A DNA stretch of 64,000 nucleotides, taken from positions 21,733 through 85,732 of the forward strand of contig UBNQ01000010.1 of assembly GCA_900466875.1 (NCBI GenBank), written 5' to 3'. The notes below the pieces were generated by a model that ran no database searches, was not told where the DNA came from, and saw nothing but the letters and a program-made list of their open reading frames with translations. Below are positions 2,327 through 21,775 of this stretch, piece after piece. A program made the position numbers and the translations under genes. Source of the stretch: Hyphomicrobiales bacterium. GTDB taxonomy: Bacteria; Pseudomonadota; Alphaproteobacteria; Rhizobiales; Rhizobiaceae. Positions within the stretch are counted from its first letter, which is position 1. Each line of letters opens with the position of its first letter.

Positions 2327-2416
2327 GGACAGGTGGCCGAGTGGTTTAAGGCGCACGCCTGGAACGCGTGTGTGCGTGAAAGCGTACCGTGGGTTCGAAT
2401 CCCACCTTGTCCGCCA
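2327..2416 (+). tRNA. tRNA-Ser(GGA)
   Basis: A 90-nucleotide class II tRNA with encoded CCA. The acceptor stem GGACAGG pairs with CCTTGTCC, the anticodon loop is CTGGAAC (anticodon GGA), a long variable arm follows, and the T-arm contains GGTTCGAATCCC. Its 3' end is repeated imperfectly at 21760-21775, which marks it as the probable integration target of the island on its right. Confidence 0.97.
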
Positions 2417-2418
2417 TT
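2403..2418 (+). other. Putative attL: 3' end of tRNA-Ser
   Basis: The bases CACCTTGTCCGCCATT match 21760-21775 (CACCTTGTCTGCTATT) at 14 of 16 positions. P4-type integrases commonly recombine in tRNA 3' ends, and such an integrase sits just inside the right-hand copy. The two mismatches suggest an old, drifted insertion. Confidence 0.5.
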
Positions 2419-2470
2419 ATTCTAAGTAACCTATTGTTTTCAATGATCTTTCGAGATCAAGATTTGACCG

Positions 2471-2491
2471 GCCCGCCACGCAGCCCGCCAC
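2471..2491 (+). repeat. Left copy of 21-base direct repeat (two CCCGCCAC octamers)
   Basis: Two CCCGCCAC octamers, spaced 12 bases start to start, form a 21-base sequence repeated perfectly at 21606-21626. Both copies lie close inside the putative att sites. This is the placement expected for arm-type binding sites of an integrase with an N-terminal arm-binding domain. The arm-site role is inference. Confidence 0.6.
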
Positions 2492-2669
2492 GGTCGAAAA
2501 GCGCTGCCGATAACAGGACCCTCCCAAAAAAAGTTTCGCAAGCCTATTGCCAGATGAGATCGGCTTAGACTAAACGGAACGTAACGGAAACGTAGATTCG
2601 ATATTCGAACGTTCCGTCCCTTATGCGCAAGATGTGCTGTTCCCATTAATTTAACTTTTTGGAGACCGC

Positions 2670-3077
2670 ATGGGCAACCAAGCGCAACTTTCCCTTTTGG
2701 ACGACTCCCACCCGGAGCTGCCGCCGCCGCAGCCCCGTGATGAGATCGTCACCATCCCCATCGCTCAGCCTACTCTTTCTGCCGCGGATCTTGTGCCTGA
2801 CGTCAGCGAGACGAGCCCGAGTGCCGCATCGGCGCCAGACCGCGTGCCGAAGGCGCCACCTTCCAAGCGCATCGTCAAGCCGGTGCCGAAGGACGACGAA
2901 CGCTATCTTTCGGTAAAGGAAGTCGCCGGTCGTTATAGCGTCAGCGTTCAGACCGTCTGGCGCCACACCAAGGATAGCCCTGACTTTCCGAAGCCCATTA
3001 AGGTTCTCAGCGGATCGACCCGCTGGAAGCTTCGTGATCTCGTCGCTTACGAGGCTTTCCGCCAGGAGGCCGTGTAA
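2670..3077 (+). CDS. AlpA/excisionase-like helix-turn-helix protein
   Basis: A 135-residue protein. Residues 1-75 are low-complexity and proline-rich. Residues 79-130 form a MerR/AlpA-type winged helix (YLSVKEVAGRYSVSVQTVW, then PKPIKVLSGSTRWKLRDLVAYE). This pattern is typical of excisionases and AlpA regulators of integrative elements. A good Shine-Dalgarno (TTTGGAGACC) precedes the ATG. It overlaps the next gene by one base (TAATGA), so the two are probably one transcript, followed 211 bases later by an integrase. The likely role is to direct excision or regulate the element. The proline-rich front half is unusual for AlpA and might be a partner-binding tail. Confidence 0.7.
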   Translation: MGNQAQLSLLDDSHPELPPPQPRDEIVTIPIAQPTLSAADLVPDVSETSPSAASAPDRVPKAPPSKRIVKPVPKDDERYLSVKEVAGRYSVSVQTVWRHTKDSPDFPKPIKVLSGSTRWKLRDLVAYEAFRQEAV

Positions 3078-3517
3078 TGACCGCCTCTACTTCGGACAAG
3101 AAGCCGCGCCGCAACCGCCAGAGCGAAACTGCCGCTAAGATCAACGAGCTTTACGACAGCCAGGATGTCATCAAGCTCTATGGCATCAACAGGAATACGC
3201 TGCTCAACTGGATTAAGGCCGGCTTAACTTACATTGAAAGCGAGCCACGCCTGTTTCTTGGGGCCGACCTCAATGCCTTTCAGAAGAAGCGTAATGGTAA
3301 CTCCCGCAAAAATGTCGGCGCCTACGAAGGATATTGCCCCGGCTGCCGGACAGGTCACAGCTTGCTTGTCGGAGATATCCGCGTGAAACCTATGAGCACT
3401 GGCAATTTCCGGGTCTACCGCGCCTGCCCTGATGGCGCTGGAGAGGCTGGAAAGTGGTTCTCCAAGGAAGACCTGGCGGTCATTTACCAGCTGCGGGAAT
3501 CCAATCCCGGAGCCTAG
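3077..3517 (+). CDS. Helix-turn-helix protein with Cys motif, mobile-element accessory
   Basis: A 146-residue protein coupled to the excisionase-like gene by overlapping stop and start codons. Residues about 27-70 (SQDVIKLYGINRNTLLNWI) look like a MerR/excisionase-type DNA-binding helix-turn-helix. The C-terminal part has a CPGC pair (C87, C90) and a later C117, which might bind a metal ion together with a histidine (H94). No specific family was recognised. Its place between an AlpA-like protein and an integrase suggests a part in integration or excision control. It has no signal peptide or membrane segment, so it is cytoplasmic. Confidence 0.6.
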   Translation: MTASTSDKKPRRNRQSETAAKINELYDSQDVIKLYGINRNTLLNWIKAGLTYIESEPRLFLGADLNAFQKKRNGNSRKNVGAYEGYCPGCRTGHSLLVGDIRVKPMSTGNFRVYRACPDGAGEAGKWFSKEDLAVIYQLRESNPGA

Positions 3518-3728
3518 ACTCCAGACTAATATGCTTCCTTTGCCCGCTCTCGGATTGTGCAAAATCGCGCAATCCGAGTCCGGCCACGCCAAGCCGCACT
3601 AAGCCGCCTGACGGCTACAGACCCCATCGAAAGAAATCTCTCCCGATACCCGAAGCTTAGAGGCAACGGCCGCGCACCCGCGGGCTTGGCCCTCATTTCA
3701 TACAAATTCCATATTAAGGAACACCAAC

Positions 3729-4838
3729 ATGCACAACATCCTCTCGGCTAATGCCAAGATGGTCTACCTGTACCAGAATGAGCTCAAACAGGCTCGTGGC
3801 TACAATGCCAAGACCGTTGATGCGGTCTTGCGCCATATCTGGCACTTCGATCGACACACTTGCTCTACCGATTTCCGTAAGGTCACGCGCCAGGCAATCG
3901 CCCATTACAAGGAAGACCTGGTCGGCGGCACTATCGGCAAGGACAACAAGATGCGCTCGCCGTCTACGATCGTCCATGCACTCGGCGCCCTCAAGGCGTT
4001 CTTCGAATGGCTTTCTGTCCAGTCCGGCTATCGCTCGATCAAGACCGATCTCTGTGCCTATTTCAATTCGTCTCGGGAGCAGCGCGAGCTCGCAAGCGCG
4101 GCCGGTCAGAAGTTCGTGCCGACGATGGAACAGCTTCGCGAGGTCATCAAGCACATGCCGGCAGAAACGCCGGCTCAGCGTCGGGACCGTGCCATGATCC
4201 CAGCGCTGCTTCTGTTCGGTGTACGCGACGGCGCACTGATTTCGCTGCGCCTCAAGCATGTGGACATCGAGAGCAAGCGGGTGTTTCAGGATGCCCGTGA
4301 GGTGAAGACGAAGTTCAGCAAGACCAACATGGTTGACTGGTTTCCGGTTGGTGAGGACATGGAGACGATCCTGATCGAATGGGTCAAGGAGTTGCGGGCG
4401 CTGGGCGCCGTCGATAATGACCCGCTTATCCCGACCGCGCCGTTCAAGCCCTGGGTAGGGCGGCCCAAGATTGAGCTCGCCTTTCTGGTCACGGCCGCGC
4501 CGATCCGGAATGTCCTGAAAAAGGCCTCGGCCGCTGCCGATGTGACCTACTTCAAGCCTCACGCAATCCGCTCCACTGTAGCGAGGTTGTTTGACGAATG
4601 GGCTGCATCGCCGAAGGAGCTCAAGGCATTGAGCCAGAACCTCAGCCACAAGCACATCGGCACGACGTTCAAATATTACGGCAACCTCGAAGACGAGACC
4701 AAGTGCGCGATTATCTCCAATATGCGCGAACGCCATAAAAACCCGATCAATGAACAGGTCGCGGAACGCTTTCACAACGCAGCGCCGGAGCTGAAGACCG
4801 CAGTCTTGGCGATCTTGAAGATTGGTGAGACTGCCTAG
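3729..4838 (+). CDS. Site-specific tyrosine recombinase (integrase)
   Basis: A 369-residue phage-type integrase. The N-terminal SAM-like core-binding domain spans about 7-115. The catalytic domain (about 125-340) shows R166 (GVRDGALISLRLKH), H278-x-x-R281 (KPHAIRSTVARLF), H307 (LSHKHIGTTF) and the nucleophile Y316. AAGGAAC precedes the ATG. It is the third gene of a small rightward module with two helix-turn-helix proteins and ends beside a strong hairpin. It is unrelated in layout to the integrase at 20370-21569, because it lacks the DUF4102 arm domain. So the region probably received more than one element, or this gene serves a separate function. Confidence 0.85.
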   Translation: MHNILSANAKMVYLYQNELKQARGYNAKTVDAVLRHIWHFDRHTCSTDFRKVTRQAIAHYKEDLVGGTIGKDNKMRSPSTIVHALGALKAFFEWLSVQSGYRSIKTDLCAYFNSSREQRELASAAGQKFVPTMEQLREVIKHMPAETPAQRRDRAMIPALLLFGVRDGALISLRLKHVDIESKRVFQDAREVKTKFSKTNMVDWFPVGEDMETILIEWVKELRALGAVDNDPLIPTAPFKPWVGRPKIELAFLVTAAPIRNVLKKASAAADVTYFKPHAIRSTVARLFDEWAASPKELKALSQNLSHKHIGTTFKYYGNLEDETKCAIISNMRERHKNPINEQVAERFHNAAPELKTAVLAILKIGETA

Positions 4839-4844
4839 AAAAAA

Positions 4845-4877
4845 ATGGCGCGGCGCCCGTGAGGGGCGCCGCGCCAT
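4845..4877 (-). terminator. Intrinsic terminator between convergent genes
   Basis: A perfect 14-base GC-rich stem (4845-4858 with 4864-4877, arm ATGGCGCGGCGCCC) has a 5-base loop. A run of A on its left gives a U-tract to transcripts coming from the right, so it best fits the minus-strand capsule gene. It could also stop the integrase transcript. Confidence 0.85.
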
Positions 4878-6922: not shown

Positions 6923-8350
6923 TTATCCTCGTCCGAACTCGTCGACAATGCGGATGATGTCGTCTTCCCCGAGATAGGAACCGGTCTGAACCTCGATCAT
7001 CTCAAGCATGATCTTGCCGGGATTGGCGAGACGATGGACTTCACCCTGCGGAATATAGACGGACTCGTTTTCGCGAACGATCTTGATTTCATCGCCGACA
7101 GTGACTTCCGCAGTCCCCTTCACGCATATCCAGTGTTCGGACCGGTGATGGTGCTTCTGCAGCGACAGCTTCTTGCCCGGCGTGACGAAAAGCCGCTTCA
7201 CCTGGAACCGGTCGCCATTGAGGATCGACGTGTATCCGCCCCAGGGGCGATAGGATGTCGGATGGGTCTGGGTCAGCGCTGCGGTGCTTTTGGCAGATCC
7301 GAGCATCTTGACCAGCGAGCCGACGCTCTGGCTCTCGTCGAGCTTGCCGACATAGACCGCGTCCTCGCTAGCGATGACGGCAACACCGTCAAGGCCCTGA
7401 ACGGCGAGATGGCTGGTTCGCGACATAACGAGCGAATTGCGGGTGTTGACGACCGTGGCATTGCCGAGCGCGACATTGCCGTCCGTATCCTGCTTGCCGA
7501 GCTTCCATACGGCATCCCAGCTGCCCATGTCGGACCAGGAGAAGGAGGAGGGGACGACGGCGGCATTTGCCGTCTTTTCCATGATCGCATAGTCGATGGA
7601 AATGTCGGTCGCCTTGCCGAAGGCGTCTGCATCGAGACGCACGAAGTCGAGATCGTTCTGTGCCTTGGCAACGGAAGCTGCTGCCGCATCGGCCACTGCA
7701 GATGCGTATTTCTGCATTTCCGACAGGACGTGTGCGGCACCGAACATGAAGATACCCGAGTTCCACAGGAATCCGCCGGCATCCAGCATCGCTGCGGCCT
7801 TATCTGCATCCGGCTTTTCGACAAAGCGCTTAACCGCCTTGGCACCGTCGCCGAGATCCTTGCCGACTTCGATATAACCGTAACCGGTTGCCGGCTCGGT
7901 CGGCATGATGCCGAACGTCACGAGCTTTCCGGCCTTCGCTGTCTTGAGAGCGATATCGATCGCGCTCTGATAGCTCTCGCCGGAGACGATCTCATGATCG
8001 GAGGCGAGAACCTGGATGATGGCGTCATCACCGAATTTCTGCATCACATAGGCGGCTGCGGCGGCAACTGCCGGTGCGGTATTGCGTGCCGTCGGCTCCA
8101 GCAGGACCCCGGAAAGCTTCATGCCGAGTTCTCGCGCCTGCTCGGCCACGAGAAACCGGAAGTCCTCATTGGTGATGACGACAGGCGCTTCGTAATGATT
8201 GCTGTCGGAGACACGCTCCAGGGTTTTCTGGAACAGGCTGAGATCATCAGTGAACTGGATGAACTGCTTCGGAGCGCTTGCACGCGAAAGCGGCCACAGG
8301 CGTGTACCCTTGCCGCCCGCCATGATTACCGGAATGATCTTGTCAGTCAT
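6923..8350 (-). CDS. manC: Mannose-1-phosphate guanylyltransferase / mannose-6-phosphate isomerase
   Basis: A 475-residue type II bifunctional enzyme making GDP-mannose from mannose-1-phosphate and GTP, usually with a phosphomannose isomerase activity. The nucleotidyltransferase signature GGKGTRLWPLSR lies at residues 12-23. The C-terminal cupin domain (about 350-470) includes QKHHHRSEHWICVKGTAEV and ends in the usual GSYLGEDDIIR stretch. Full length. GDP-mannose feeds capsule, LPS or exopolysaccharide sugars such as mannose and fucose. It lies beside the KpsS-like gene, consistent with precursor supply for the island polysaccharide, although housekeeping use is also possible. Confidence 0.93.
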   Translation of the reverse strand: MTDKIIPVIMAGGKGTRLWPLSRASAPKQFIQFTDDLSLFQKTLERVSDSNHYEAPVVITNEDFRFLVAEQARELGMKLSGVLLEPTARNTAPAVAAAAAYVMQKFGDDAIIQVLASDHEIVSGESYQSAIDIALKTAKAGKLVTFGIMPTEPATGYGYIEVGKDLGDGAKAVKRFVEKPDADKAAAMLDAGGFLWNSGIFMFGAAHVLSEMQKYASAVADAAAASVAKAQNDLDFVRLDADAFGKATDISIDYAIMEKTANAAVVPSSFSWSDMGSWDAVWKLGKQDTDGNVALGNATVVNTRNSLVMSRTSHLAVQGLDGVAVIASEDAVYVGKLDESQSVGSLVKMLGSAKSTAALTQTHPTSYRPWGGYTSILNGDRFQVKRLFVTPGKKLSLQKHHHRSEHWICVKGTAEVTVGDEIKIVRENESVYIPQGEVHRLANPGKIMLEMIEVQTGSYLGEDDIIRIVDEFGRG

Positions 8351-8677: not shown

Positions 8678-9043
8678 TTGGATGTAAGGGATTTGATCCG
8701 TGGTTTGGAAAGCGCGGGTCAGCCGTCGCGTTTCCTGGACCGGCAGATTGTACAGATAATCGGTTGGCAGAAGGCCGCAGGTCCGATCGGTGGGGACGGT
8801 CGACCGACTGTTCGGTGGATTCCCCCAGGAGCAAGCAAGCCCAGAAGATGTCCGCTGTACACGTTGGACTTGCACGACGCCTACAGCCTGGCAGTGCAGA
8901 TTGATCCAGATCACATCGGCGCATTCGTGAAAGAAGGCGAAATGTCTCGGGCGCAGCTTGAAGGTGGGGCCGTGGCCTACGGTGCGACGCCAGCCATTGC
9001 GCTCTGCGTAGCTGTACTAAAGCTCAAATACGCGCTTCCTTGA
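8678..9043 (+). CDS. Phage ABA-sandwich-like small protein, paralogue A
   Basis: A 121-residue protein. The TTG start is chosen because a perfect AAGGAG lies 7 bases upstream and no better ATG exists. The sequence holds FLDRQIVQIIGWQ near residue 19 and ends with PAIALCVAVLKLKY. These are hallmarks of small prophage-encoded proteins of the 'ABA sandwich' type, whose function is unknown. It is clearly paralogous to the protein at 17401-17772: shared SRFLD.QI, DAY.L, DP.H..AFV.EG, SRAQ.EG and P.IALC.A. A more distant relative is at 19558-19917. It sits next to a broken kpsM copy, convergent with it. Confidence 0.7.
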   Translation: MDVRDLIRGLESAGQPSRFLDRQIVQIIGWQKAAGPIGGDGRPTVRWIPPGASKPRRCPLYTLDLHDAYSLAVQIDPDHIGAFVKEGEMSRAQLEGGAVAYGATPAIALCVAVLKLKYALP

Positions 9044-9164
9044 CGAAGGTCCTAATATCAGTCGAGAACGCATATAATGGGACGCATCAGTTACATAAGT
9101 TTGCATGAATCATAGGATTGGGTCTCGCTGGCCTATGTTCGCCTCACTATCCGCCATAACGAGT

Positions 9165-9396
9165 CCACGGCCTGAAAGCTTTGGAAGCCAAATACCCCGA
9201 GGAATAGAATAGCGCAAAACTGCCCGATTGTGGAACGCGACCGACGGCAGTTATCAGCAATGACATGATGCTAATAAACGCGATGTTCTCTAGGAACGCC
9301 GCAAATAGCCGCTTGGGCTTCGACCGTATCGGATGTGGCTATTTCTCTGATAATAAAGGCAGAGACTATCCTCATATGGGTCCCAAAATAGCCCAT
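9165..9396 (-). pseudogene. Degraded kpsM (capsule export permease), 5' part
   Basis: Reading leftward from the ATG at 9396, the DNA encodes MGYFGTHMRIVSAFIIREIA, then after a one-base shift RYGRSPSGYL. After a second shift it encodes FLENIAFISIMSLLITAVG and later SGSFALFYSSGYLA. This follows the intact permease at 16604-17377 (MDYLRTHLRIVSAFIIREIA, RYGRSPGGYL, FLEPIAFIALMSSLMSAIG, TSFTLFYATGYLA) almost residue by residue. The copy has at least two frameshifts and stops matching after about 75 codons. It is a relic of a duplicated or replaced capsule-export gene. Confidence 0.85.
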
Positions 9397-9524
9397 TACC
9401 GGACATCGTGACGTCGACGAAACTGGAAATTCTGAAATGTTGACCGAAGCTGTCGAAAATGGTCCCGCAGTTCAACTGCAGAGGATATCACATGTTTAGA
9501 AGCAAGCAGAGCCTGCTTCAATGT

Positions 9525-10631
9525 TTATGGTTGGAGCCGCTCGCGAGGAATTGCGTACAAATCGGTTTCTGAGTGATACGCGTCGTGGTGGCCGATGAAA
9601 AAAGCGTAATCGGGTACCGTTTCGCGTATCATCAGTGGCAATTCAAATAAATCTTCATGTCGATGATAAATGCTAATTTGAAGCTTCGGGCGGTGCTTAA
9701 GAATAACCCGTTGTGCGCCTCGGATCGCAGCCGCCTCAGCACCCTCCACATCAAGACTGATCAAGTCACATCTATCTAGGTCGAGATCGTCGATACGCTT
9801 TGTCGGTACCGTGATATTGCCTTTAACTTCAAGTCTCGACGAGCCATCCGACGTTGCGGAGAATCGCATCAAGCCGTTTTCGTCAGCCAATGCTAATTGA
9901 AGCAGCTCAACGTTTGTTACCCCGAGTGTTTTGATTGATTTTATTATTGCGTCAGCATTCGTTGGGTCTGGCTCAACGGCAAATACCTGACCCCTCGGTC
10001 CAACCGACCTCCCAAAAGCAAAAGATGTGCGACCATTAGATGCGCCCCCGTCAATCACAGTGTCACCAGGCTCGGCACACACTAAGGGGTGACAATATTC
10101 CCGGTACTTGGCAATGCGGAGATACCCATGATCGCCGGTCACTCTGTGTTTGATGACCGAGGCGTACGATAGCCTGCTCTCCTCATCTTCGAGCATCTCG
10201 AATACGGATTGCAGCTTTCCTGAGTAATCTGCGAAATAGGAAGGATAGAATTTCGAGTTTCGAAATTTTGGGTCCCGATCAAGAACTAGATCTGAGAGGC
10301 CGTAGCGAGCTAACTCCACACATTTGCGCCGAGCCGATATTCCAAAGACAATACACAATAGATGCGGAGAGGTGTTTATACGTTTTGTCTTCATCAACAA
10401 CGATGAACCCACATCACACTTGACATCCTTTACCGTTGCAATGGCAAACGGAGGGCGCCCTGCTACTCCCATATACCAAGCAATAGCGTCTGACGCTTCA
10501 TCCGCTGTGCAAAAAATAACGGCTTCACGCTTTACGTCTGATTTGTCGAAGTAACGGCGTTGCCTTAGCGTGGCTGATAGGTAGGACGGCAGATACATTC
10601 GGGACTTCCCTAACGAACTCTGGATTTTCAT
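9525..10631 (-). CDS. FkbM-family SAM-dependent methyltransferase
   Basis: A 368-residue protein. Residues about 170-330 form a Rossmann methyltransferase with the SAM-binding motif DTVIDGGASNGRTS, the acidic post-motif VFAVEPDPTNAD and the FkbM hallmark DLISLDVEGAEAAAIRGAQ. The first 150 residues are not recognisable and may bind a carrier or partner. FkbM enzymes O-methylate sugars or polyketides; next to capsule genes, a polysaccharide O-methyl decoration is likely. It lies downstream of the glycosyltransferase on the same strand with a 131-base gap. Base composition is visibly poorer in GC than the core genes. Confidence 0.8.
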   Translation of the reverse strand: MKIQSSLGKSRMYLPSYLSATLRQRRYFDKSDVKREAVIFCTADEASDAIAWYMGVAGRPPFAIATVKDVKCDVGSSLLMKTKRINTSPHLLCIVFGISARRKCVELARYGLSDLVLDRDPKFRNSKFYPSYFADYSGKLQSVFEMLEDEESRLSYASVIKHRVTGDHGYLRIAKYREYCHPLVCAEPGDTVIDGGASNGRTSFAFGRSVGPRGQVFAVEPDPTNADAIIKSIKTLGVTNVELLQLALADENGLMRFSATSDGSSRLEVKGNITVPTKRIDDLDLDRCDLISLDVEGAEAAAIRGAQRVILKHRPKLQISIYHRHEDLFELPLMIRETVPDYAFFIGHHDAYHSETDLYAIPRERLQP

Positions 10632-10762
10632 AAAACGGCTTGCTGTGACCGCAATCAGCGTGCCCTGTCCTCAAAAGTTGTCATCGTGCTTTCAGTAGTC
10701 TCGTTAGCTTCTGGCTCTGCGGCGCGTCGCAAGGATAAGCCTTTATGGATATTCGAACCAAA

Positions 10763-12280: not shown

Positions 12281-14424
12281 TTTACAATGTCCTTCGCAGG
12301 TCCGCCTACGATACGGTCACGCCGGACGCTTATGTATCGGCACATATCAGTAACGCCGATCCGTTCGTTTTCGTCGGGATCATAATAAAGCGAAGAAGCC
12401 ATGTAGGCCCAATAGAAAATATCTTCTATTGACCTATTCTTGCTTCGCCAGTCCAGCTTGAGCCTGTCATTTGTCTGCCCCCACCCAGCGTAGAACGGGG
12501 CACCATAAGTGTTAACTTTTACCCCACCGATCAGAGCTTCAAACCCCATGCCAGATGTAACAACTGACACTTCGTCGACGTGATCGAACAGCGCGTACGG
12601 GTTGCTTTCTCCATCATGGATTAGAATATTAGGATGATCCAGGAGGCCTCCCAATATCTGTCTGCTGAAATATGATCCCTTGCCTCCGATGGTGCCATCG
12701 GGATGTCTCTTAAGGACGACCAGCGCGTTGTCATCTCTCACTACGGCGTCCATCACCATTTGTCGGAAGGAATCTTCGGTACCAAGGCCGCTTGGCACCG
12801 ATTGATCTCCGAGGCGCTGATCGACCAAAAGCACCTTTTTACGTCTGTCCTCCGCCCATTTGGGGGCGATATCTGGAGCGTGATTGTATTTGCTTATGCG
12901 TTTTGATCTTATCTCGGTCAGGGCGGCTTGGCTCTGTGTCAACTCGGCCGGTGAGATCTTCCAGTCGGACGCAAGCATCGCCTCGATGCGAGACCAGCTT
13001 CGGGCATCGTAATAAGGATTCATGTCGTCGATTAAGAAGGAGAGTCCAGGGTTTCCGCCCAGTCCTATTTCAACGGATCGAATGAAGCCGTCCTCAATGA
13101 AGAAAAGTGGACCTCCCACTGCTGAGGCATTTTTGTACAAATTTAGGTTGCGTCCGCTCTCATTTGCACCCCACTGAAGAAAAGCAAAGGCGGGCGCCAA
13201 ATTAGCAAACGATGAGCCTCCAGCCGTTACGCGATCTTTGGCGTCAAACGCAGGCAAGAGATACTTCTGATAACCCTCCTGTACGATTTGATTTTCCTTG
13301 CTTGCCGTGAGAGCCAACGGAGCATTTAGAGAGCCGGCAAGCAGGCGGCTTCGATAGCAATTCCCTATGTCGTGATTTCTATTCCACGCACCCAAACTCG
13401 AGGACCAGTTATGAAGGGCTTGCCGACTAGTAACACTGTGCTCGAAACGGCGGATATTGCTGAGATATCTTTCACTTGATTCCAGCGCATGCGCCAGGTA
13501 GCTGACATTGGCATCGCCGGAGTGCTCTTGAGCAGCTGTCGGCCTGGCTAAAATAGCGCGCTTGGTTGTCAGCAGCATCGCGATAAAATTGGCGGCAGAA
13601 AGCCTGCCTCTCATTAACGACACGAACCTGCTCTTTGAAATGCTCTTTGCAACTGTCTGAAGAATTAACTCCTCCACAGAATTGTCAAAAATCACCAGTG
13701 GCTTTCGTCGCTCATTTGCGTCGTCGACCGCGCGTGAGAGTACATCGTTCCAGATATTTATATCGGTCAAGCTAGGATGCCTTATCAATACAAACGCACC
13801 GTCATCGATCGGAAGGCCGGCGAGGAAGCAAACATTTCTGATGGCAATCAGCGAGTTCCCCTCAGCGCGCTCGCCAAGCAGAGGAGACCAATCGCAATAG
13901 ATGGAAAAGACCAAGGGACTTAAATGAGAGCTCTCCGCAGCTAGTGTTGCTTCATTGGCAGCGTTGCCTACCTCAATAATTCCGACTTCAAGTGCGGCAC
14001 AAACCTTTTGGACAATTCGCTCAAGCCAGCCCTTTTCGTTTGCCATGACAAAAACGGGCGTCTTTTTGCTGTCGGTGCATGCGGAAATGATTTGCATAAC
14101 GGCAAGTCGGAGCGCATTAGGCTCTTCCTGTATTTTCTTCTTATCCAGTTTCCCGGTGAAAAGGCTTCGAAACTTCAGATGGCCAAATGCGCTGAGGTCG
14201 CAGTTACCTTGCTTCTCAAAATCCTCCCAAAATTCATCTATGGGCGAATTCAAAAGCGATATTGCGATGATGTCTTTATCTGGGCGAGCAATACGAGCCA
14301 GGTAATCGGGCACTAGGATCGCTGAAGGCTTGGGGTAAAGTCCGGGCGCTTCTCGCCCGCCGTGCATACGCCTCACAATGCCCGAAATTGCGTTCGGGAT
14401 ATGTCGAATGATTCTCAGAGGCAT
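12277..14424 (-). CDS. KpsC-like capsule beta-Kdo transferase
   Basis: A 715-residue protein. The last 250 residues show the Kdo-transferase module of KpsC and related proteins: KKVLLVDQRLGDQSV, KRHPDG, a DEVSVVTSGMGFEALIGG stretch and the hallmark NTYGAPFYAGWGQTNDR. In KpsC two such modules alternately build the poly-Kdo linker on lyso-phosphatidylglycerol. Here the front half is more divergent (a weak FFIEDGFIRSVEIG-type match near residue 445), so one module may be dominant or altered. It is first in the leftward transcript with a GT4 and an FkbM methyltransferase. The 354-base spacer to the divergent FkbM gene should hold the promoters. Confidence 0.8.
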   Translation of the reverse strand: MPLRIIRHIPNAISGIVRRMHGGREAPGLYPKPSAILVPDYLARIARPDKDIIAISLLNSPIDEFWEDFEKQGNCDLSAFGHLKFRSLFTGKLDKKKIQEEPNALRLAVMQIISACTDSKKTPVFVMANEKGWLERIVQKVCAALEVGIIEVGNAANEATLAAESSHLSPLVFSIYCDWSPLLGERAEGNSLIAIRNVCFLAGLPIDDGAFVLIRHPSLTDINIWNDVLSRAVDDANERRKPLVIFDNSVEELILQTVAKSISKSRFVSLMRGRLSAANFIAMLLTTKRAILARPTAAQEHSGDANVSYLAHALESSERYLSNIRRFEHSVTSRQALHNWSSSLGAWNRNHDIGNCYRSRLLAGSLNAPLALTASKENQIVQEGYQKYLLPAFDAKDRVTAGGSSFANLAPAFAFLQWGANESGRNLNLYKNASAVGGPLFFIEDGFIRSVEIGLGGNPGLSFLIDDMNPYYDARSWSRIEAMLASDWKISPAELTQSQAALTEIRSKRISKYNHAPDIAPKWAEDRRKKVLLVDQRLGDQSVPSGLGTEDSFRQMVMDAVVRDDNALVVLKRHPDGTIGGKGSYFSRQILGGLLDHPNILIHDGESNPYALFDHVDEVSVVTSGMGFEALIGGVKVNTYGAPFYAGWGQTNDRLKLDWRSKNRSIEDIFYWAYMASSLYYDPDENERIGVTDMCRYISVRRDRIVGGPAKDIVN

Positions 14425-14778
14425 TTGCGTCTACCGTTCTGGACCGACACGCAGGTCCGATGCGAGCCGTTGGATTTGGCAATCAAAACTCGTCTGAACA
14501 ATCATATAGCCGCGTATGATGTCAATGTCGCAGATGTCGAGGCCAGCGATTGTCGTCGCATGGATGATCCCATTCTGAGAAACAGACAAGCACTAATTCT
14601 TTGTTTTTGTTCGCATCGGATTCTGGAATCAGGAAGCCTGTTGGCTCGAAAGTCTGTTTATCCCTGCCTCGTAGCCTTGTCGATGCTGCAGGACGGTGCG
14701 GGATGGTTTGAAAGATACTGTTGTAAGAAGAAGGGAACCGGGCGGGCCGGTTGATTTTCTTCGAGAAACGTAGTTCAG
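14425..14778. other. Spacer between divergent capsule genes
   Basis: 354 bases between the KpsC-like gene (leftward) and an FkbM methyltransferase (rightward). Overlapping ORFs here have no family resemblance or ribosome sites. Presumed promoters of both transcripts; no specific motif was identified. Confidence 0.5.
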
Positions 14779-15726
14779 ATGGTCGAAATTGCATTGTTGA
14801 GGATGAGTATGTTTGGTCTTGGCGGTCGGCGGCACAGCGAACTTTTGGCTGAAATTATCAGTCTGCGAAAAGAGATACAGTTGCTGCGCGAAGAAAGAGC
14901 AGCAGAGAACATAACACGCCAGATAAAATCGATAAAAAATAAAATTGTAAGCGCGGAAGAAATAGAGAGTATAATCAATGATCGCATAAAGAAATCGTTT
15001 AGATTTAGTGATAGTCTTTCGATTGCAATCGCAGCGCACTCTGAGAGCTTGGATAAGGTTTTTACCATATATAACTCGCAGATTGGCTGTAAATTCTACC
15101 TTCCGAACGGCCGGTCGGATCATGTTCAGCGAGAAATAGTTCGAACATCCGATTTCTACGAAGCGAAAACGCTGACGTTCCTAAGAAATTCGGGGTTGAT
15201 CCCTGTTGCCCCTGCTGTTGTCGATGTTGGAGCGAACATAGGAAATCATAGCGTTTTTTTTGGAAAGATAATGAATGCGTCAAGCATAGTGGCTTTCGAG
15301 CCTAATCCGCCGGTATTTTCCATCTTGAATCGAAATATTGAATTGAATGAACTCTCTGATGTTGCGCGGTTATATTGTGCTGCGGCGGGGAATATTCGTT
15401 CAAAAGCTAGAAGTGCCGGGCATAAACTCAATAATCTTGGAGAAAACTCGATTGTGGAGGACGAGACAGGGGATATCGACATACTGCGCTTGGATGACCT
15501 GAATCTATCTGCCGTCGATTTCCTAAAGATCGACGTTGAAGGTTACGGTTCAATGGTTTTAGATGGTGCCCGCCAACTAATTTCCGCACACCAGCCAACA
15601 ATTCTTATGGAGGTCACCTCTAGCGCTGAGCGAGAGGCAGTTAAGCGATTGCAGAGTGAGTTCGCATACCGAATCCATTCGGATTTTGGACGGGACCTTA
15701 TACTGACTGCTAGTGGGAAGTCTTGA
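14779..15726 (+). CDS. FkbM-family methyltransferase, second copy type
   Basis: A 315-residue protein. An N-terminal coiled-coil-like region (about 20-75, rich in E, R, K, L) is followed by a SAM methyltransferase with PAVVDVGANIGNHSVFFG, SSIVAFEPNPPVFS and DDLNLSAVDFLKIDVEGYGSMVLDGA, the FkbM hallmark. It shares only the family motifs with the enzyme at 9525-10631, so the two are not a recent duplication. The ATG at 14779 is used here; ATG 14806 has a closer GAGG and is an alternative. Strikingly AT-rich compared with the flanking chromosome, suggesting transfer. Likely a sugar O-methyltransferase of the island polysaccharide. Confidence 0.8.
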   Translation: MVEIALLRMSMFGLGGRRHSELLAEIISLRKEIQLLREERAAENITRQIKSIKNKIVSAEEIESIINDRIKKSFRFSDSLSIAIAAHSESLDKVFTIYNSQIGCKFYLPNGRSDHVQREIVRTSDFYEAKTLTFLRNSGLIPVAPAVVDVGANIGNHSVFFGKIMNASSIVAFEPNPPVFSILNRNIELNELSDVARLYCAAAGNIRSKARSAGHKLNNLGENSIVEDETGDIDILRLDDLNLSAVDFLKIDVEGYGSMVLDGARQLISAHQPTILMEVTSSAEREAVKRLQSEFAYRIHSDFGRDLILTASGKS

Positions 15727-15892
15727 TGCACCTGTTGAGCCGGCGGCGCAACATCTGGGAAAATTACTAACTTGGGGTCGCGAACTGAATGCGCCGACGG
15801 CTGCAAATCTCATGGTATTGATTGCCACTGAGAGTCGACCCGGCGGTTCCACCGAGGATTGGCTCTAGTGCACTTATGCTGACTCGTGATTG

Positions 15893-16196
15893 TTAGGTTG
15901 CGTCGATCAATAGCGCCTGCAGAAGATCGAGTTTGGCTCGTCCGTACATTTGGCGTTTGATGAGCTTCAAGCGCGTGATCTGGCCTTCTCTCTGACCGTT
16001 GACCAAGTTGAGATGATTGCGTTTCTGACGGCACGGCATCGAGGTCCTTTGCAACGTCACCGGCAAACAATCCGGCTAAATTGCTCTTTGCCGTTTCTAG
16101 CCATTCGTCGAGCTTCCGCGCGGTCTTCGAGCGGATCATGGACTTGAAGTCGCCAATAGCTGTGATCGCCACACCGGTGGGTGTGTTGGACATGGA
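15893..16196 (-). pseudogene. ISL3-family transposase remnant (C-terminal end)
   Basis: The leftward reading gives FKSMIRSKTARKLDEWLETA, then in shifted frames RNAIISTWS, and finally NGQREGQITRLKLIKRQ and MYGRAKLDLLQALLIDAT before a TAA. The GQ.EGQI.RLKLIKRQMYGRA block is the conserved C-terminus of ISL3-family transposases. At least two frameshifts and the missing front two-thirds make it inactive. No terminal inverted repeat was recognised. It is evidence of past insertion in the middle of the capsule region. Confidence 0.85.
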
Positions 16197-16302
16197 TTAC
16201 TCCGGTGTTAATGATGTCAGGTCAGGAGTTCATGCATCCGCGTTTACAAGCCGCATAAGATGCAATACCCGTATCTTGACTATTCGATGGAGAAGTACGG
16301 AG
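16197..16302. other. Short scar region with an orphan C-terminal-looking reading frame
   Basis: One plus-strand frame in this stretch and just beyond reads RVYKPHKMQYPYLDYSMEK and then YGGDF before a stop at 16311-16313. It has no start upstream within open frame, so it looks like the 3' end of a gene lost when the insertion element decayed. No family was recognised. Confidence 0.3.
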
Positions 16303-16464
16303 GTGATTTCTGACGAACAGCACTACCGCGAACGCCATGATTTCTTCGAACGAAACGAGCTATCAGCCGACGCGCTGCGGGCGGCATTGAGCTGTGTGGC
16401 CATCGATGGCGACGAATTCAAAAAACTCTGGACGGGGCGCTGCCAAGCGGTGTGGCACCTCTAA
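16303..16464 (+). CDS. Small hypothetical protein (53 residues)
   Basis: A GTG start preceded by CGGAGG, overlapping the end of the orphan frame upstream, opens a 53-codon frame containing YRERHDFFERNELSADALR and ending in CQAVWHL. The protein is charged, soluble and of unknown family. The overlap suggests it was once translationally coupled to a gene now lost. It may be a decayed leftover. Confidence 0.3.
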   Translation: MISDEQHYRERHDFFERNELSADALRAALSCVAIDGDEFKKLWTGRCQAVWHL

Positions 16465-16606
16465 TTGAACTTCTCGCACTCGCGGGTAAGCAGTTTGCTG
16501 ACGAGAAGTGATCACACTCAAATCTGGCTGAGGATGAAGCCGAAGGCGGAACCAAGCCTTCCACCTGATCCAATCGTTTATCAGCGATTGAACAAACGGA
16601 ATAATG

Positions 16607-17377
16607 ATGGACTACCTCCGGACACATTTGCGGATAGTCTCTGCTTTCATAATCAGAGAAATCGCCACGAGGTACGGTCGAAGCCCTGGTGGTTATCTTT
16701 GGGCATTTTTGGAGCCGATAGCTTTCATTGCCCTTATGTCATCATTGATGTCAGCGATCGGGCGATCCCCGCCTATGGGTACAAGCTTCACCCTTTTTTA
16801 TGCCACCGGCTATCTCGCGTTCAGTCTTTACAGAATTATGGAGAACTACCTGACGTCGGCGGTGAGCGCGAATAGGAGCCTTCTCAGCTATCCCAGCGTT
16901 GCAGCATTCGATGCAGTTGTTGCCCGCTTTATCCTGCAAGCGGGCACATCGGTCGTGGTGTCGGTAGTAATCATTCTGGGTGCATTACAGACTGTTCGCC
17001 ACCCCATATCGCTTGACTGGGCGCGGATTCTCGAAGCGGCCACGGCGGCATGGATAATGGCTATCGGGGTCGCGCTCTGTAACATTACACTCTTCTTCAA
17101 GTTCCCTTTATACCGGAAGGCTTATGAGAATTTAACGCGGCCGCTGCTTTTGATTTCCGGTGTTTTCATCCTGCCAACGCATGTGCCCCACCCGTATAGG
17201 GAATGGCTGCTTTGGAATCCGGTTTCCCACATCGTCATCTTGTTCAGGCGGGGATTTTATGGAGCCCCTGGTCATGACGGATTGGACGTGCAATTTCTCA
17301 CTATCACCGTATGCACGGCATTTTTCCTTGGGATGCTTATTTTCACCGTATGGCCAATAGGTCGATTGAGGGACTGA
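16607..17377 (+). CDS. kpsM: ABC-2 type polysaccharide export permease, KpsM-like
   Basis: A 256-residue inner-membrane permease of the KpsM/RkpT2/Wzm group. It starts MDYLRTHLRIVSAFIIREIA, followed by RYGRSPGGYLWAFLEPIAF, the conserved amphipathic entry, and about six hydrophobic segments from residue 35 to the end. The second ATG (16607) is preferred over 16604 because the broken paralogue at 9396 begins at the corresponding codon. KpsM pairs with the ATPase KpsT to export lipid-linked capsule; no kpsT is present in the window, so the ATPase must come from elsewhere or be lost. An ABA-sandwich-like gene follows only 23 bases downstream. Confidence 0.88.
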   Translation: MDYLRTHLRIVSAFIIREIATRYGRSPGGYLWAFLEPIAFIALMSSLMSAIGRSPPMGTSFTLFYATGYLAFSLYRIMENYLTSAVSANRSLLSYPSVAAFDAVVARFILQAGTSVVVSVVIILGALQTVRHPISLDWARILEAATAAWIMAIGVALCNITLFFKFPLYRKAYENLTRPLLLISGVFILPTHVPHPYREWLLWNPVSHIVILFRRGFYGAPGHDGLDVQFLTITVCTAFFLGMLIFTVWPIGRLRD

Positions 17378-17400
17378 TTATTTGATGGAAAGGGTATTTT

Positions 17401-17772
17401 ATGAATTCGCGCACCGTTATTGAAAACCTGAACACAGCTACCGGCGCCAGTCGATTTCTTGATAGCCAAATCGCCTTAGCTATCGGTTGGAGAAAGGTGC
17501 GTAATCCAAAAGGCGACGGCGGCGCCAGAAACACATGGTTTCCTCCCGGATCCGACGAAGCCGCGATTTGCCCATTCTTTACCTCAAGCCTTGAAGATGC
17601 TTACTATCTATCGAGCCTTGTTGACCCAGGCCATGCCGCAGCATTCGTGAGAGAGGGGGCATCCTCTAGGGCGCAATTTGAAGGCAGTGAGCCATGCTAC
17701 GCGCCGACGCCACAAATTGCGCTTTGCATCGCTGCCCTCACACATGGGCAGAAATTAGGGAGACTGTCCTAA
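17401..17772 (+). CDS. Phage ABA-sandwich-like small protein, paralogue B
   Basis: A 123-residue soluble protein with ATG start and GGAAAGGG upstream, 23 bases after kpsM and probably in the same transcript. It aligns along its length with paralogue A at 8678-9043, including SRFLDSQIALAIGW, FPPGSDEA.ICPF, DAYYLSSLVDP and TPQIALCIAAL. Prophage genomes carry many proteins with this layout; no biochemical role is known. Its tight link to a capsule permease, repeated beside the broken permease, is unexpected. It could be a passenger from a phage or an island-specific factor. Confidence 0.7.
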   Translation: MNSRTVIENLNTATGASRFLDSQIALAIGWRKVRNPKGDGGARNTWFPPGSDEAAICPFFTSSLEDAYYLSSLVDPGHAAAFVREGASSRAQFEGSEPCYAPTPQIALCIAALTHGQKLGRLS

Positions 17773-17775
17773 TCT

Positions 17776-18603
17776 TCAGCCAAAGAATGCTTTCATCGCT
17801 GTAGCCAGTGGTATCTCGCCGGCACGGTATTTACCGAGAATTTCGGATCTCCTGAGCCTCATTCTGCCTTTAGCGCCGTGCGTCATCAATGCATGGATCC
17901 GCTCCGCGTAACGCTTGTAGACCTTGCGCTCAAAGTGCTGTGGCTCCCGACCTCGCGAGAGAGCTGGCGCGACTTTCCGCAGATACTGAATATCTATGCT
18001 CGCAGGTACAACCAATGAATCCTGGAAGGCGACCGCCCATTGCTTACGCTCCAGCGACTTGTAGTTATTCACCGGGAAATGAAGGAAGACTATCATTGCG
18101 CGCGGCTGCTTCTTTCTAAGATATCGGAGAAGACAGTTGAAGTTTTCCGCGGCTGATTGAGGAGTAAGCCTTTCTCCCAATTGAAACCCTGCGGGCGCTT
18201 CCCCGTTCGGGTAACTGCAAAACACGTCTTCCCCATCAACGTTATAGAGCCTCGCTACGAGGTCCATAAAGTTGTCTACCAAGATCAAGTCGAAGCTGAC
18301 TTTTTCGATCGCCTCCAAAAATTGGATACCGTGAGGCAGTTTGTGCCTGCCTAATCCTTCTACCGACTGGTTGAGGAGGAGGTTATATGCTGTGAACTCC
18401 CCCTCGCCGCCTGGCTCGACGTGCATTCTACCGCTCAACTCTCCAACAGATTTCAGCCTGCGACGTCCCTGCACAAGAAGATCGACAAGCTGGTCGCTCC
18501 TGTTGTGATATACGCTTGTAACTCTTTGAGCTCCGGGCATGTACGCAGCTACTCGATTTGAAAGACACGAACCAACTGTTGCAACCAGCACGATAAAATC
18601 CAT
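17776..18603 (-). CDS. Hypothetical protein, possible SGNH/GSC-type polysaccharide-modifying enzyme
   Basis: A 275-residue protein without signal peptide or membrane helix. The N-terminal strand VLVATVGSCLSNRVAAYM (G11, S12, C13) resembles the nucleophile block GSC of SGNH-like proteins found in capsule clusters. DLILVDNFMDLVARLY and MIVFLHFPVNNY follow as plausible further strands. A catalytic Asp-His pair near the C-terminus is not obvious, so activity is uncertain. It converges on paralogue B with a 3-base gap. Possible roles are acetyl- or acyl-transfer or removal on polysaccharide; alternatively the resemblance is superficial. Confidence 0.5.
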   Translation of the reverse strand: MDFIVLVATVGSCLSNRVAAYMPGAQRVTSVYHNRSDQLVDLLVQGRRRLKSVGELSGRMHVEPGGEGEFTAYNLLLNQSVEGLGRHKLPHGIQFLEAIEKVSFDLILVDNFMDLVARLYNVDGEDVFCSYPNGEAPAGFQLGERLTPQSAAENFNCLLRYLRKKQPRAMIVFLHFPVNNYKSLERKQWAVAFQDSLVVPASIDIQYLRKVAPALSRGREPQHFERKVYKRYAERIHALMTHGAKGRMRLRRSEILGKYRAGEIPLATAMKAFFG

Positions 18604-19557: not shown

Positions 19558-19917
19558 TCATAGGCTAGATAGAGTTCCGTTCGGCTGATTATCTCGCTGC
19601 ACTTTCATGAGTAAAGCGGCTATGCACAGCGCAAGAGGTAGGGATGCAGCTTTCGCGATATACTTAAGCTGGCCAACGCGGACGCTTGCGGCTTGTGGTT
19701 CCCAAGCGCAAGCGATTACATCGCCGGAAGCAAACATATCGGCCAGCTCAAAAGCTACCTGGAAATTGGTTGTATACGGAGGAGGAGAATTAGCTTCAGA
19801 GTCCGGTTGATCTTCGTTCTGAGTTTGCCTTGTAAACCCGACGACATCAGCAATGCGTGCATCAAGGCCTTCCGAGCCGACTTGAGCGCCCTGAAGACTC
19901 TTGATCAATTCTATCAT
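19558..19917 (-). CDS. Phage ABA-sandwich-like small protein, paralogue C
   Basis: A 119-residue soluble protein. The internal ATG at 19917 is preferred because AAAGGAAAACC sits just upstream; the longer frame to 19962 adds a basic, non-homologous leader. It starts MIELIKSLQGAQVGSEGLDARIADVVGF and contains QLKYIAKAASLPLALCIAALLM, the shared C-terminal helix of this family. It is clearly more distant from A and B than they are from each other. Isolated between two gene-poor stretches near the right end of the island. Confidence 0.65.
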   Translation of the reverse strand: MIELIKSLQGAQVGSEGLDARIADVVGFTRQTQNEDQPDSEANSPPPYTTNFQVAFELADMFASGDVIACAWEPQAASVRVGQLKYIAKAASLPLALCIAALLMKVQRDNQPNGTLSSL

Positions 19918-20369
19918 CGCGGTTTTCCTTTCTTCTCTGATTTTTAGCGCCCTCCTGGGCATTCACTATGAACTTGTTGGAATCAAAGAGCAAAAGCTAT
20001 CCGTCCACATTCAATCGATGGCCCATGAGGCGTATTCAGCCTTCCTGGCTGCATTGGGTACAATGTTGCTGGCCAGCTCCATTTCCGCACCGAACCCCAA
20101 GATGTCATATCCGATGCAGGACTAAAAAGTTCCAGCTTTTTCGCTAAGTTGTCGGATGATTTCGAAAGAAGATTTAATCCGCATCCTTTTAGCCGCTCAG
20201 CTATAGTTATGGTAGGTGGGCTAACCTGCCGCTGAGGTTCAGCAGGCTGTGGTTAAGCTCTCACGCTTTCCTCGGGGGGGGGGCTGCCTTGATTTCTGGC
20301 TTATCAGAAGGTGGAGCTTTCTTGCTTTGAAGGAGGGTGCGGAATAGATGCTAAGGCATTACGGAGGGT
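19918..20369. other. Gene-poor stretch ahead of the right-hand integrase
   Basis: 452 bases with no supportable ORF. A run of ten G residues at 20274-20283 stands out. The ORF on plus near 19901-20125 lacks a ribosome site and family resemblance. Confidence 0.45.
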
Positions 20370-21569
20370 TTACAAGAGTGCAAAGCTCTCCCACTCCAGC
20401 ATCATCGCCCGCCGCTGCTCCAGCAAATCCGTCCGGTGATACGCCGCCTCCACCGCATTCTTGATGGTGTGCGCCAACGCCCGCTCGGCCAGATCGCGCG
20501 GATAGCCGCTCTCTGACGCCCAGTCGCGGAAGCTGGAGCGGAAGCCGTGGGCGGTGGCGAGGCGGCCGGGGGTGTCGCTTTCGATCTTCTTGTCGCGCAG
20601 GAATTTGGTGAGCACCATGTCGGTCATCGGCTTGCGCGAACGCGACGGAAAGACCAGGCCTTCGCCGGTCTCTGACTTGTCGAGCTGCCTTTCCAGGATT
20701 TCGATTGCCCTTGGCCCGAGCGGCACGCGATGCAGCACCTTGCCCTTCATGCGGAGGGCGGGAATGGTCCAGATCGCGTGAGAGAAGTCGATCTCGTCCC
20801 ATTGCATCTGGCGCAGCTCGCCGGATCGGCAGGCCGTCAGGATAAGGAGCTCCAGCATCAACCGTGACACAGTCTCTCCCTCCTGGAGCATCGACATGAA
20901 TGCTGGCAGCTCTCGCCAGGGTAGGGCCGGTTGGTGCTCGACGCGCTCGCGCTTGCCGGGTTGCTTCGGCAGGATCTTGTCAACGACGCCGACGGGGCTG
21001 GCCAGAATGAAGCCATGAGCTGCGGCCCAGTTCATGACGGCATCGCAACGCTGTTTGATGCGGGCGGCCGTTTCCGCCTTCTTGAGCCAGATTGGCTTGA
21101 GGCACGCGGCGAAGTCGGCAGGGGTGAGGTCGTTGACCAGCCGTTTGCCGATTTTCGGAAAGACGTGCTGCTCAAGTGACGTCATCCATTGTTCGGTGTG
21201 CTTGCTATTGCGAAAACCTTCCGCCTTGTCGGCATGATGCTGGCGGGCGGCAACCTCGAAGGTCGGCACCGAAGCCAGGCGCGCTGTTTCGCGCTCCTGT
21301 GCTCGCCGCAGGTCGAGCGGGTCCTTGCCGTCCTCGATCGTTCCACGTGCTTCCATGGCCCTGAGCCGGGCGTCGCGGATGGAAATGGTCGGGTAGCTGC
21401 CCAACCCCATTTCTCTGCGCTTGCCGGTAGCCGGTGACACGAAACGCAGGATCCATTTTCCGGTGCCGGCCGACGTCTCGGTGGGAACGAGATAAAGGCC
21501 CGGCACAGTGCCATCGGAGACAGGCTTGTCTTTCGGCTTTATCTTCCGCGCCTTCGCGTCGCTCAACAT
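20370..21569 (-). CDS. P4-type tyrosine integrase (DUF4102 arm-binding domain)
   Basis: A 399-residue integrase. The N-terminal arm-binding domain (about 1-90; LYLVPTETSAGTGKWILRFV, GLGSYPTISIRDAR) and a core-binding domain (about 100-190) precede the catalytic domain with R248 (TACRSGELRQMQW), H341-x-x-R344 (HGFRSSFRDWA), H367 and nucleophile Y377 (AAYHR). This family typically inserts islands into tRNA 3' ends. The start codon lies 37 bases inside the CCCGCCAC repeat and about 190 bases from the putative attR, the expected arrangement. Full length and with all catalytic residues, so possibly still active. Confidence 0.92.
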   Translation of the reverse strand: MLSDAKARKIKPKDKPVSDGTVPGLYLVPTETSAGTGKWILRFVSPATGKRREMGLGSYPTISIRDARLRAMEARGTIEDGKDPLDLRRAQERETARLASVPTFEVAARQHHADKAEGFRNSKHTEQWMTSLEQHVFPKIGKRLVNDLTPADFAACLKPIWLKKAETAARIKQRCDAVMNWAAAHGFILASPVGVVDKILPKQPGKRERVEHQPALPWRELPAFMSMLQEGETVSRLMLELLILTACRSGELRQMQWDEIDFSHAIWTIPALRMKGKVLHRVPLGPRAIEILERQLDKSETGEGLVFPSRSRKPMTDMVLTKFLRDKKIESDTPGRLATAHGFRSSFRDWASESGYPRDLAERALAHTIKNAVEAAYHRTDLLEQRRAMMLEWESFALL

Positions 21570-21605
21570 TTTCGATCCTCAAATCACCTCGGAGGCCTCT
21601 CTCTA

Positions 21606-21626
21606 GCCCGCCACGCAGCCCGCCAC
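21606..21626 (+). repeat. Right copy of 21-base direct repeat (two CCCGCCAC octamers)
   Basis: Perfect copy of 2471-2491, placed just upstream of the P4-type integrase start. Its position inside the putative attR mirrors the left copy inside attL, consistent with arm-type integrase sites and possible autoregulation of int. Confidence 0.6.
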
Positions 21627-21759
21627 AAGATGCAATATTCGGCGATATGGGTTGAGAGCGGTTGAGATAAGTGATGGTAGAAAATTATCTTGATTTACAT
21701 ATAGTTATGAGATTGTTTGGTGTAGAAATGAGATGATATGAGACGGCCTAAATGGCAGG

Positions 21760-21775
21760 CACCTTGTCTGCTATT
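21760..21775 (+). other. Putative attR: imperfect copy of tRNA-Ser 3' end
   Basis: CACCTTGTCTGCTATT matches the last 14 bases of tRNA-Ser plus two flanking bases at 14 of 16 positions. It lies about 190 bases outside the integrase start. It is most simply the leftover of the original tRNA end displaced by integration. Confidence 0.5.

Follow-up and report, generated by a model that had tools for sequence, protein, structure and literature searches.

The window analysed here, 64,000 nucleotides of DNA from a Hyphomicrobiales bacterium, contains a serine tRNA gene, tRNA-Ser(GGA), followed by about 19 kb in which capsule genes lie between two tyrosine recombinase genes, Int and TR2, raising the question of what kind of element this is, how it would enter and leave the tRNA gene, and what a second recombinase contributes. 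The segment from a short crossover block (2403-2411) to its repeat (21760-21768) is read here, with a probability of roughly 90%, as an integrative genomic island in the 3' end of tRNA-Ser(GGA), and it appears best described as an island without visible transfer genes that is old at this site and whose capsule cargo turns over. An island of about 19 kb in tRNA-Ser had been proposed by the initial annotation and is supported by the repeat, an empty site and related islands, whereas TR2, a set of paired 9-mers at the island ends and the divergence of the recombinase frame were absent from that account. The features are collected in Table 1.

Table 1. Features of the island and its borders (window coordinates; HTH, helix-turn-helix)
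Feature	Position	Strand	Evidence
tRNA-Ser(GGA), probable integration target	2327-2416	+	ARAGORN
attL core; crossover within 2403-2411	2403-2418	+	core repeat, shuffles, comparison with relatives
Left paired 9-mers (+68/+80 from core), probable integrase arm sites	2471-2491	+	repeat search, relatives
Excisionase-like protein, 135 aa	2670-3077	+	phrog_66 E 4.5e-7, phrog_1553 E 2.4e-5
HTH protein, 146 aa	3077-3517	+	PF12728 E 8e-5, below cut-off; phrog_66 E 1.6e-5
30-bp palindrome before TR2, candidate site or operator	3549-3578		inverted-repeat search
TR2, second tyrosine recombinase, 369 aa	3729-4838	+	PF00589 E 7.9e-10
KpsS-like capsule protein, 632 aa	4907-6805	-	PF05159 E 2.3e-9
ManC-type mannose-1-phosphate guanylyltransferase/isomerase	6923-8350	-	PF00483, PF01050
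Phage_ABA_S-like protein 1	8678-9043	+	family search, model
kpsM relic (aa 1-82 matched in three pieces)	9156-9399	-	tblastn E 2e-17
FkbM-type methyltransferase	9525-10631	-	PF05050
Glycosyltransferase (GT4-type)	10763-12280	-	PF13692
KpsC-like capsule protein, 715 aa	12277-14424	-	PF05159 E 3e-22
Second FkbM-type methyltransferase	14779-15726	+	PF05050
KpsM-like ABC-2 permease, 257 aa	16604-17377	+	PF01061; NF050053 E 3e-21, under cut-off
Phage_ABA_S-like protein 2	17401-17772	+	family search
275-aa protein of no known family	17776-18603	-	no Pfam match
Phage_ABA_S-like protein 3	19558-19962	-	family search
Int, P4-type tyrosine integrase, 399 aa, open frame	20370-21569	-	PF13356, PF22022, PF00589
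Right paired 9-mers (-154/-142 from core)	21606-21626	+	repeat search, relatives
attR core, probable displaced tRNA end	21760-21775	+	core repeat, shuffles, comparison with relatives
tRNA-Phe(GAA)	22877-22952	-	ARAGORN

Island ends, empty site and probable arm sites

The target is the sole GGA tRNA-Ser gene found in its own genome (G000; one match at E<=1e-22), next to three further Ser tRNAs (GCT, TGA and CGA). Its 3' end, CACCTTGTCCGCCATT (2403-2418), matches CACCTTGTCTGCTATT (21760-21775) at 14 of 16 positions, as had been noticed at the outset, and the window holds just two sites with up to two mismatches to the 16-mer, the first being the query itself, against a mean of 0.06 (maximum 1) in dinucleotide shuffles of the whole window. 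Within the 400 bp right of the integrase start, an equally good plus-strand match arose in 1 of 20,000 shuffles. The two core copies diverge immediately on the left, which places the crossover in the 9-bp block CACCTTGTC. A whole tRNA gene at one end, a displaced 3' fragment at the other and an integrase gene inside, adjoining one end, are features of tRNA islands and are all present here; the distal core lies 191 bp from the start of Int. The early assignment of Int to the P4 type holds, with arm-binding (Arm-DNA-bind_3), central (Phage_int_M) and catalytic (Phage_integrase) domains, and core-type genes (DHDPS family, GntR and Maf) do lie on the outer sides.

A survey of this locus in 60 genomes, the own genome included, revealed in G007 an arrangement of GntR, tRNA-Ser, 308 bp, tRNA-Phe and Maf on a single contig (C36) with no second core copy, which is an empty site. 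The breakpoint is the same as in the window, and in the scanned stretches of G007 C36 and G014 C49 the 16-mer occurs as the tRNA end only and not as ordinary DNA. G014 is a weaker case, with no second core copy and 11 kb of other DNA between tRNA-Ser and tRNA-Phe. In two members of the same genus, G004 and G080, this tRNA likewise holds a related island, bordered on its outer sides by the same genes: the left end in G004 matches window positions 1113-4820 at 88.7% DNA identity and the right end positions 20388-21776 at 89.2%, and the G080 island occupies 13.4 kb between GntR and Maf. Directly after the distal core copy of G004 comes CCATTTTTCT, as it does after the tRNA ends in G007 C36 and G014 C49. 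Base 2412 is C in the tRNA-side copies of G000, G004 and G080 and T in their distal copies as well as in the tRNA of G007 C36 and G014 C49, and the T of the distal copies is the state of this locus. G007 lies without the island inside the clade that carries it, and a tree of two genes (GntR and Maf, the latter missing for G070), with supports of 44-72 inside the clade, does not separate loss in G007 and G014 from separate gains.

The exact 21-bp repeat GCCCGCCACGCAGCCCGCCAC, which comprises the paired 9-mers, lies inside both ends (0.01 occurrences expected by chance for its 20-mer at three mismatches), and the spacing of the 9-mers from the core is identical in G000 and G004. Genomes of two other genera have them at +68/+80 and -150/-138 (G136) and at +70/+82 and -152/-140 (G323), and G423 has a left pair at +68/+80. 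In G323, GCCCATCA replaces GCCCGCCA at both ends, and this matched change points to one protein reading both ends, most simply Int as the predicted arm-site reader, whose HGFR, H and Y residues are also kept in the G136 and G323 copies. Paired end 9-mers with conserved spacing, extending to two other genera, are new here.

In the mechanism that we propose, the P4-type Int would recombine the tRNA end with an attP site in which arm sites flank the core on both sides; the tRNA would be kept whole by the last bases that the island itself supplies, and the old end would be displaced to 21760. The frame consists of Int at the far end and the excisionase-like gene, the HTH gene and TR2 at the tRNA end, two sides that would lie back to back across attP in a circle, and Int, aided by the excisionase-like protein, would most likely both integrate and excise the island at tRNA-Ser. 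The cargo between TR2 and Int is exchangeable, here consisting of capsule synthesis and export genes that probably alter a K-antigen-like surface and hence exposure to phages and hosts. Since no transfer genes were seen, movement between cells would require a helper phage or a conjugative element.

Between G000 and G004, DNA identity is 0.951 for the excisionase-like gene, 0.941 for the HTH gene, 0.906 for TR2 and 0.904 for Int, compared with 0.906 (DHDPS), 0.874 (GntR) and 0.914 (Maf) in the flanks. The frame has thus diverged about as much as the flanks whereas the cargo differs, indicating that the insertion is old and its cargo has been replaced, as opposed to a single recent import. The same similarity of divergence would also fit an island that no longer excises, the old insertion having become a scaffold on which capsule genes are swapped by homologous recombination. 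To this explanation we assign somewhat less than an even chance, and it gains from the kpsM relic, from the gene-poor stretch at 18.6-19.6 kb, and from the broken integrase and the two ends of different type in G080. However, both recombinases of G000 are open with their catalytic residues kept, neither the 9-mer pairs nor the 9-bp block is disrupted, and G007 lacks the island as a clean loss would give, in the part of the tree where supports are 44-72.

Several observations weigh against a mobile island with a conserved frame. Excision as a circle is a prediction, and general scans of the island open reading frames (ORFs) returned no relaxase, type IV secretion or transfer genes, no relaxase-directed search having been made. 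The G004 island is split over two contigs that are not joined. In G080, Int is interrupted, the left module is of another type with TR2 broken, one left 9-mer of the GCCCATCA kind is present and right 9-mers were not found, so that this island looks like a hybrid of two frames. Other tRNA-Ser(GGA) copies of the genus (seven at a genus-wide site and five elsewhere) also have C at base 2412, and C alone is therefore no island marker. At 9 of the 27 TR2 loci compared, the 5 kb upstream carries no tRNA, two of these loci (L159 and L165) having a shorter upstream sequence than that, and the absence of downstream tRNAs reported below includes two loci, L161 and L174, with less than 5 kb on that side. 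A distal Int with a tRNA-end copy was not found in the examined stretches of G423, G395 and G242, and the one seen in G184 is a broken Int some 58 kb distant with no tRNA-end copy.

The tRNA-Ser(GGA) gene itself seems to have moved, as judged by comparing window positions 2239-2416 across the genus. Conserved DNA upstream of the gene is common to seven genus members (G005, G015, G002, G001, G016, G034 and G021); seven clade genomes keep that upstream DNA with no tRNA-Ser(GGA) match there, and the tRNA-Ser(GGA) of the clade is located next to GntR or, in G027 and G070, follows an integrase with 54-56% identity to Int. Alternative contexts are an integrase remnant (G007 C38) and DNA like the Int flank (G014 C23). 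The gene is complete at these places and is accompanied by some 80 bp of the DNA upstream of it, as at G007 C38:21000, G014 C23:52369, G027 C1:1631858 and G070 C1:189923 and 193859, with two tRNA-Ser(GGA) copies each in G007, G014 and G070, and the whole tRNA gene may have been carried by an element. In addition, G027 has a second perfect tRNA-Ser core 2.95 kb downstream (C1:1632013-1634975; L070, L100), possibly marking a very small island.

The second recombinase and its module

TR2 is the third gene of an excisionase/HTH/recombinase module adjoining the tRNA. Its closest models are Xer-type, with scores far below their cut-offs, and an alignment of 16 relatives (16 of 26 sequences) shows no variation at R166, K195, H278, R281, H307 and Y317 (R, K, HxxR, H, Y). 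Relatives at E<=1e-25 are encoded by 35 of 394 family genomes, the own genome included, belonging to 25 of 109 genera. TR2 was also matched in four plasmid records (Ruegeria, Rhodobacteraceae and Legionella). Neighbourhoods were compared at 27 loci, namely 25 of 37 places outside the own genome together with G012 and G021; G005 (at a contig start), G080 (broken copy), G014, G071 and G034 lie outside this set. A tRNA lies within 5 kb upstream of TR2 in 18 of the 27, on the same strand in all, and downstream in none. Two layouts predominate, tRNA-Ser followed by the excisionase-like gene, HTH and TR2, and tRNA-Leu(CAG) followed by Int, HTH and TR2; L181 has tRNA-Ser(GGA), Int and TR2. The complete layout, from tRNA-Ser through excisionase-like gene, HTH, TR2 and cargo to Int and a distal tRNA-end copy, recurs in G136 (27.6 kb, tRNA-Ser GGA) and G323 (16.1 kb, tRNA-Ser CGA), each in another genus and each with a distal copy matching at 15 of 18 positions. 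In G291 and G354, tRNA-Leu and Int are located about 11 and 22 kb upstream of TR2, and G231 has no tRNA within 29 kb upstream.

TR2 is most likely a fixed part of the frame, and it would most likely assist excision or resolve circular multimers. The palindrome before TR2 occurs once each in the G000, G004 and G136 genomes and not in G007 or G080. As a general feature of TR2 it was rejected, because the 400 bp upstream of TR2 at 28 loci contain it in G000, G004 and G136 only; an unrelated inverted repeat of similar strength lies upstream of TR2 at L175. Each of the five genomes searched has no more than one palindrome copy, which leaves a reaction between two sites of the same island copy without support.

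A different possibility is that TR2 is cargo, or the relic of a second, nested mobile element, with no part in island movement. A single integrase suffices in other tRNA islands, most of the cargo of G323 and G136 differs with only the TR2 sequence kept (a conservation that does not show function), and the palindrome is restricted to 3 of 28 loci. We nevertheless consider this unlikely, given the fixed place of TR2 behind the excisionase-like and HTH genes by a tRNA across genera (18/27 upstream vs 0/27 downstream), its invariant catalytic residues and a divergence like that of Int (0.906 vs 0.904). A defective prophage or phage satellite, to which the Phage_ABA_S-like proteins, the excisionase-like gene and TR2 relatives at seven places in IMG/VR contigs might point, is improbable, as no capsid, tail, terminase or other prophage structural family was seen among the island ORFs scanned, and tblastn on viral stretches recovered TR2 and, in a single case, a short part of Int, with the remainder of the module missing.

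Capsule cargo and the tRNA-Phe side

Most of the content named by the initial annotation is present. The capsule genes comprise two PF05159 proteins, ManC, GT4, two FkbM proteins and a KpsM-like permease with an unbroken 257-aa frame, and the kpsM relic, the gene-poor stretch (no ORF of at least 80 aa between 18603 and 19558) and the low GC content (0.495 at 9044-17400 vs 0.608 at 24000-64000) are likewise recovered. A proposed insertion sequence relic was not confirmed: only a 27-nt inverted pair 3.7 kb apart was found, and Pfam was empty on ORFs 15813-16193 and 16465-16872. No complete KpsMTED exporter was seen among the island ORFs scanned, and a PF05159 pair and a KpsE-like gene are encoded elsewhere in the genome in 7 of 7 clade genomes searched (in G000 the KpsE-like gene, on C26, falls below the family cut-off), which suggests that export parts encoded elsewhere in the genome help to make the capsule and that the island probably alters it. 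KpsC relatives occur in 20 plasmid records; identity stays under 60% in every one, and coverage of the query never reaches 80%. In G007 C28, a protein 32% identical to the 275-aa protein lies next to relatives of KpsC and GT4.

Cargo differs among the related islands. KpsS-like relatives, with 84% aa identity in G004 and 88% in G080, are found in both islands, and G080 further encodes a PF05159 protein that also has a heptosyltransferase domain, together with SIS, pfkB/CTP-transferase and HAD proteins, the last three looking like a heptose pathway. The G323 cargo comprises type I restriction R and M, a GmrSD/AlbA-type protein and a reverse transcriptase, for which RT and RT_UG17 are the PADLOC models with the highest scores, and that of G136 consists of envelope-like proteins, judged by eye from translations. 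PADLOC gave no match on four window proteins (the 275-aa protein, Phage_ABA_S-like protein 1, the HTH protein and the 199-aa protein described below).

The three Phage_ABA_S-like genes form one family, and their description as phage-like small proteins is confirmed by PF18066 (Phage_ABA_S), which matches 5 of 12 family members (best E 1.5e-4), the first copy in the window having no match; PHROGs gave no match on the three proteins. The structure model of protein 1 (pLDDT, predicted local distance difference test, 94.7) has as its best solved structure the phage protein 1r7l (E 0.029, none reaching E<=0.001) and as its best viral model an uncultured phage protein (E 1.7e-4). At E<=1e-6, the family has three members in G000 and two in G080, all in the islands, three in G004 (a single one within the island, the other two roughly 1 kb away from a KpsS-like gene), and two in G007 (one beside KpsC-/GT4-like genes, one beside ManC). 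In these four genomes, the ABA_S-like genes sit with capsule genes. The first G007 gene is on a small contig (C28:1-6255; L208) with relatives of the 275-aa protein, KpsC and GT4, and the second adjoins ManC (97% aa identity over the last 129 aa) at C38:1-791 (L209), on the contig of the second tRNA-Ser.

Considering frame and cargo together, we only tentatively suggest that this island belongs to a widespread Rhizobiaceae family in tRNA-Ser and tRNA-Leu, with a two-recombinase frame in which TR2 would have a job other than integration (such as multimer resolution at the palindrome or cargo swap) and with interchangeable phage-facing cargo (capsule, restriction, reverse-transcriptase defence). 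The locus provides a mapped, testable capsule island in a rhizobium-like bacterium, with the crossover placed within 9 bp, paired 9-mers and an empty site, and the same frame is tied to defence genes in another genus. If TR2 proved to be needed, islands of this family would depend on two recombinases, which would change how such islands are recognized and how the exchange of capsule and defence cargo is viewed.

Outside the island, tRNA-Ser and tRNA-Phe converge, enclosing 2417-22876. The 1.1 kb at 21776-22876 (GC 0.503 for 21776-22870) contains a 199-aa ORF of no known family (22229-22828) and has a 68% DNA relative at G033 C4:437735; its part up to 22870, adjoining tRNA-Phe, matches nothing at DNA level in the 0.3 kb observed for G004 and G007. 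The tRNA-Phe facing tRNA-Ser is likely a second integration spot; its last 24 bases are repeated at a distance of 45.6 kb in G027 and of 16.8 kb in G003, and 50-nt exact copies of its 3' part occur in G024 and G025. Elsewhere, a KpsS paralogue (63-66% aa identity) of normal GC adjoins tRNA-Thr(CGT) in G000, G014, G007 and G027 (L210, L211, L212 and L213) and looks like a core gene, and the island stretch G004 C73:28313-31858 (L067, L068) encodes a 1181-aa protein with repeated VQVGDGN-like units, curlin-like by eye.

Comparison with known systems

Group 2-type (ABC-exported) capsule loci, kps/rkp, encode KpsC, KpsS and the exporter KpsMTED; the present island shares KpsC-, KpsS- and KpsM-like genes with them, whereas KpsT, KpsE and KpsD were not seen among its scanned ORFs. 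Strand-biased circularizing integrative elements reportedly have more than one tyrosine recombinase, their own gene set and tRNA-independent targets, the first of these being a likeness to the present island. Like it, they are integrative elements (PMC10214605). The tripartite integrative and conjugative elements of Mesorhizobium, in which three regions assemble and conjugate, resemble it in that several site-specific recombinases serve one rhizobial mobile system (PMC5882170), whereas the present element is a single island with both recombinases inside and no conjugation genes seen among the ORFs scanned.

Closer in organization are the IntY/AlpA islands of Pseudomonas, which are moved by a jumbo phage and sited at the transfer-messenger RNA (tmRNA) gene. 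They have a tyrosine integrase at one end and an AlpA-like regulator at the opposite end, carry variable phage-facing cargo, are bounded by short direct repeats and lack transfer genes (PMC12595487); these features have likenesses here, with a candidate in the case of the regulator. The candidate AlpA-like regulator opposite Int is the protein that is excisionase-like by its phrog_66 and phrog_1553 matches, with no Pfam family at E 0.001. The present island differs in its target, tRNA-Ser and not tmRNA, in the HTH gene and TR2 behind the excisionase-like gene, and in its capsule cargo. Among the literature matches listed, from a limited library, no description of a two-recombinase frame was found. 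Genomic islands in tRNA genes with a tyrosine integrase are collected in the Islander database (PMC4383910) and share with the present island an internal integrase, a restored tRNA and a displaced fragment marking the far end. The kind of island is already known; the additional tyrosine recombinase, part of a conserved module beside the tRNA, is new here.

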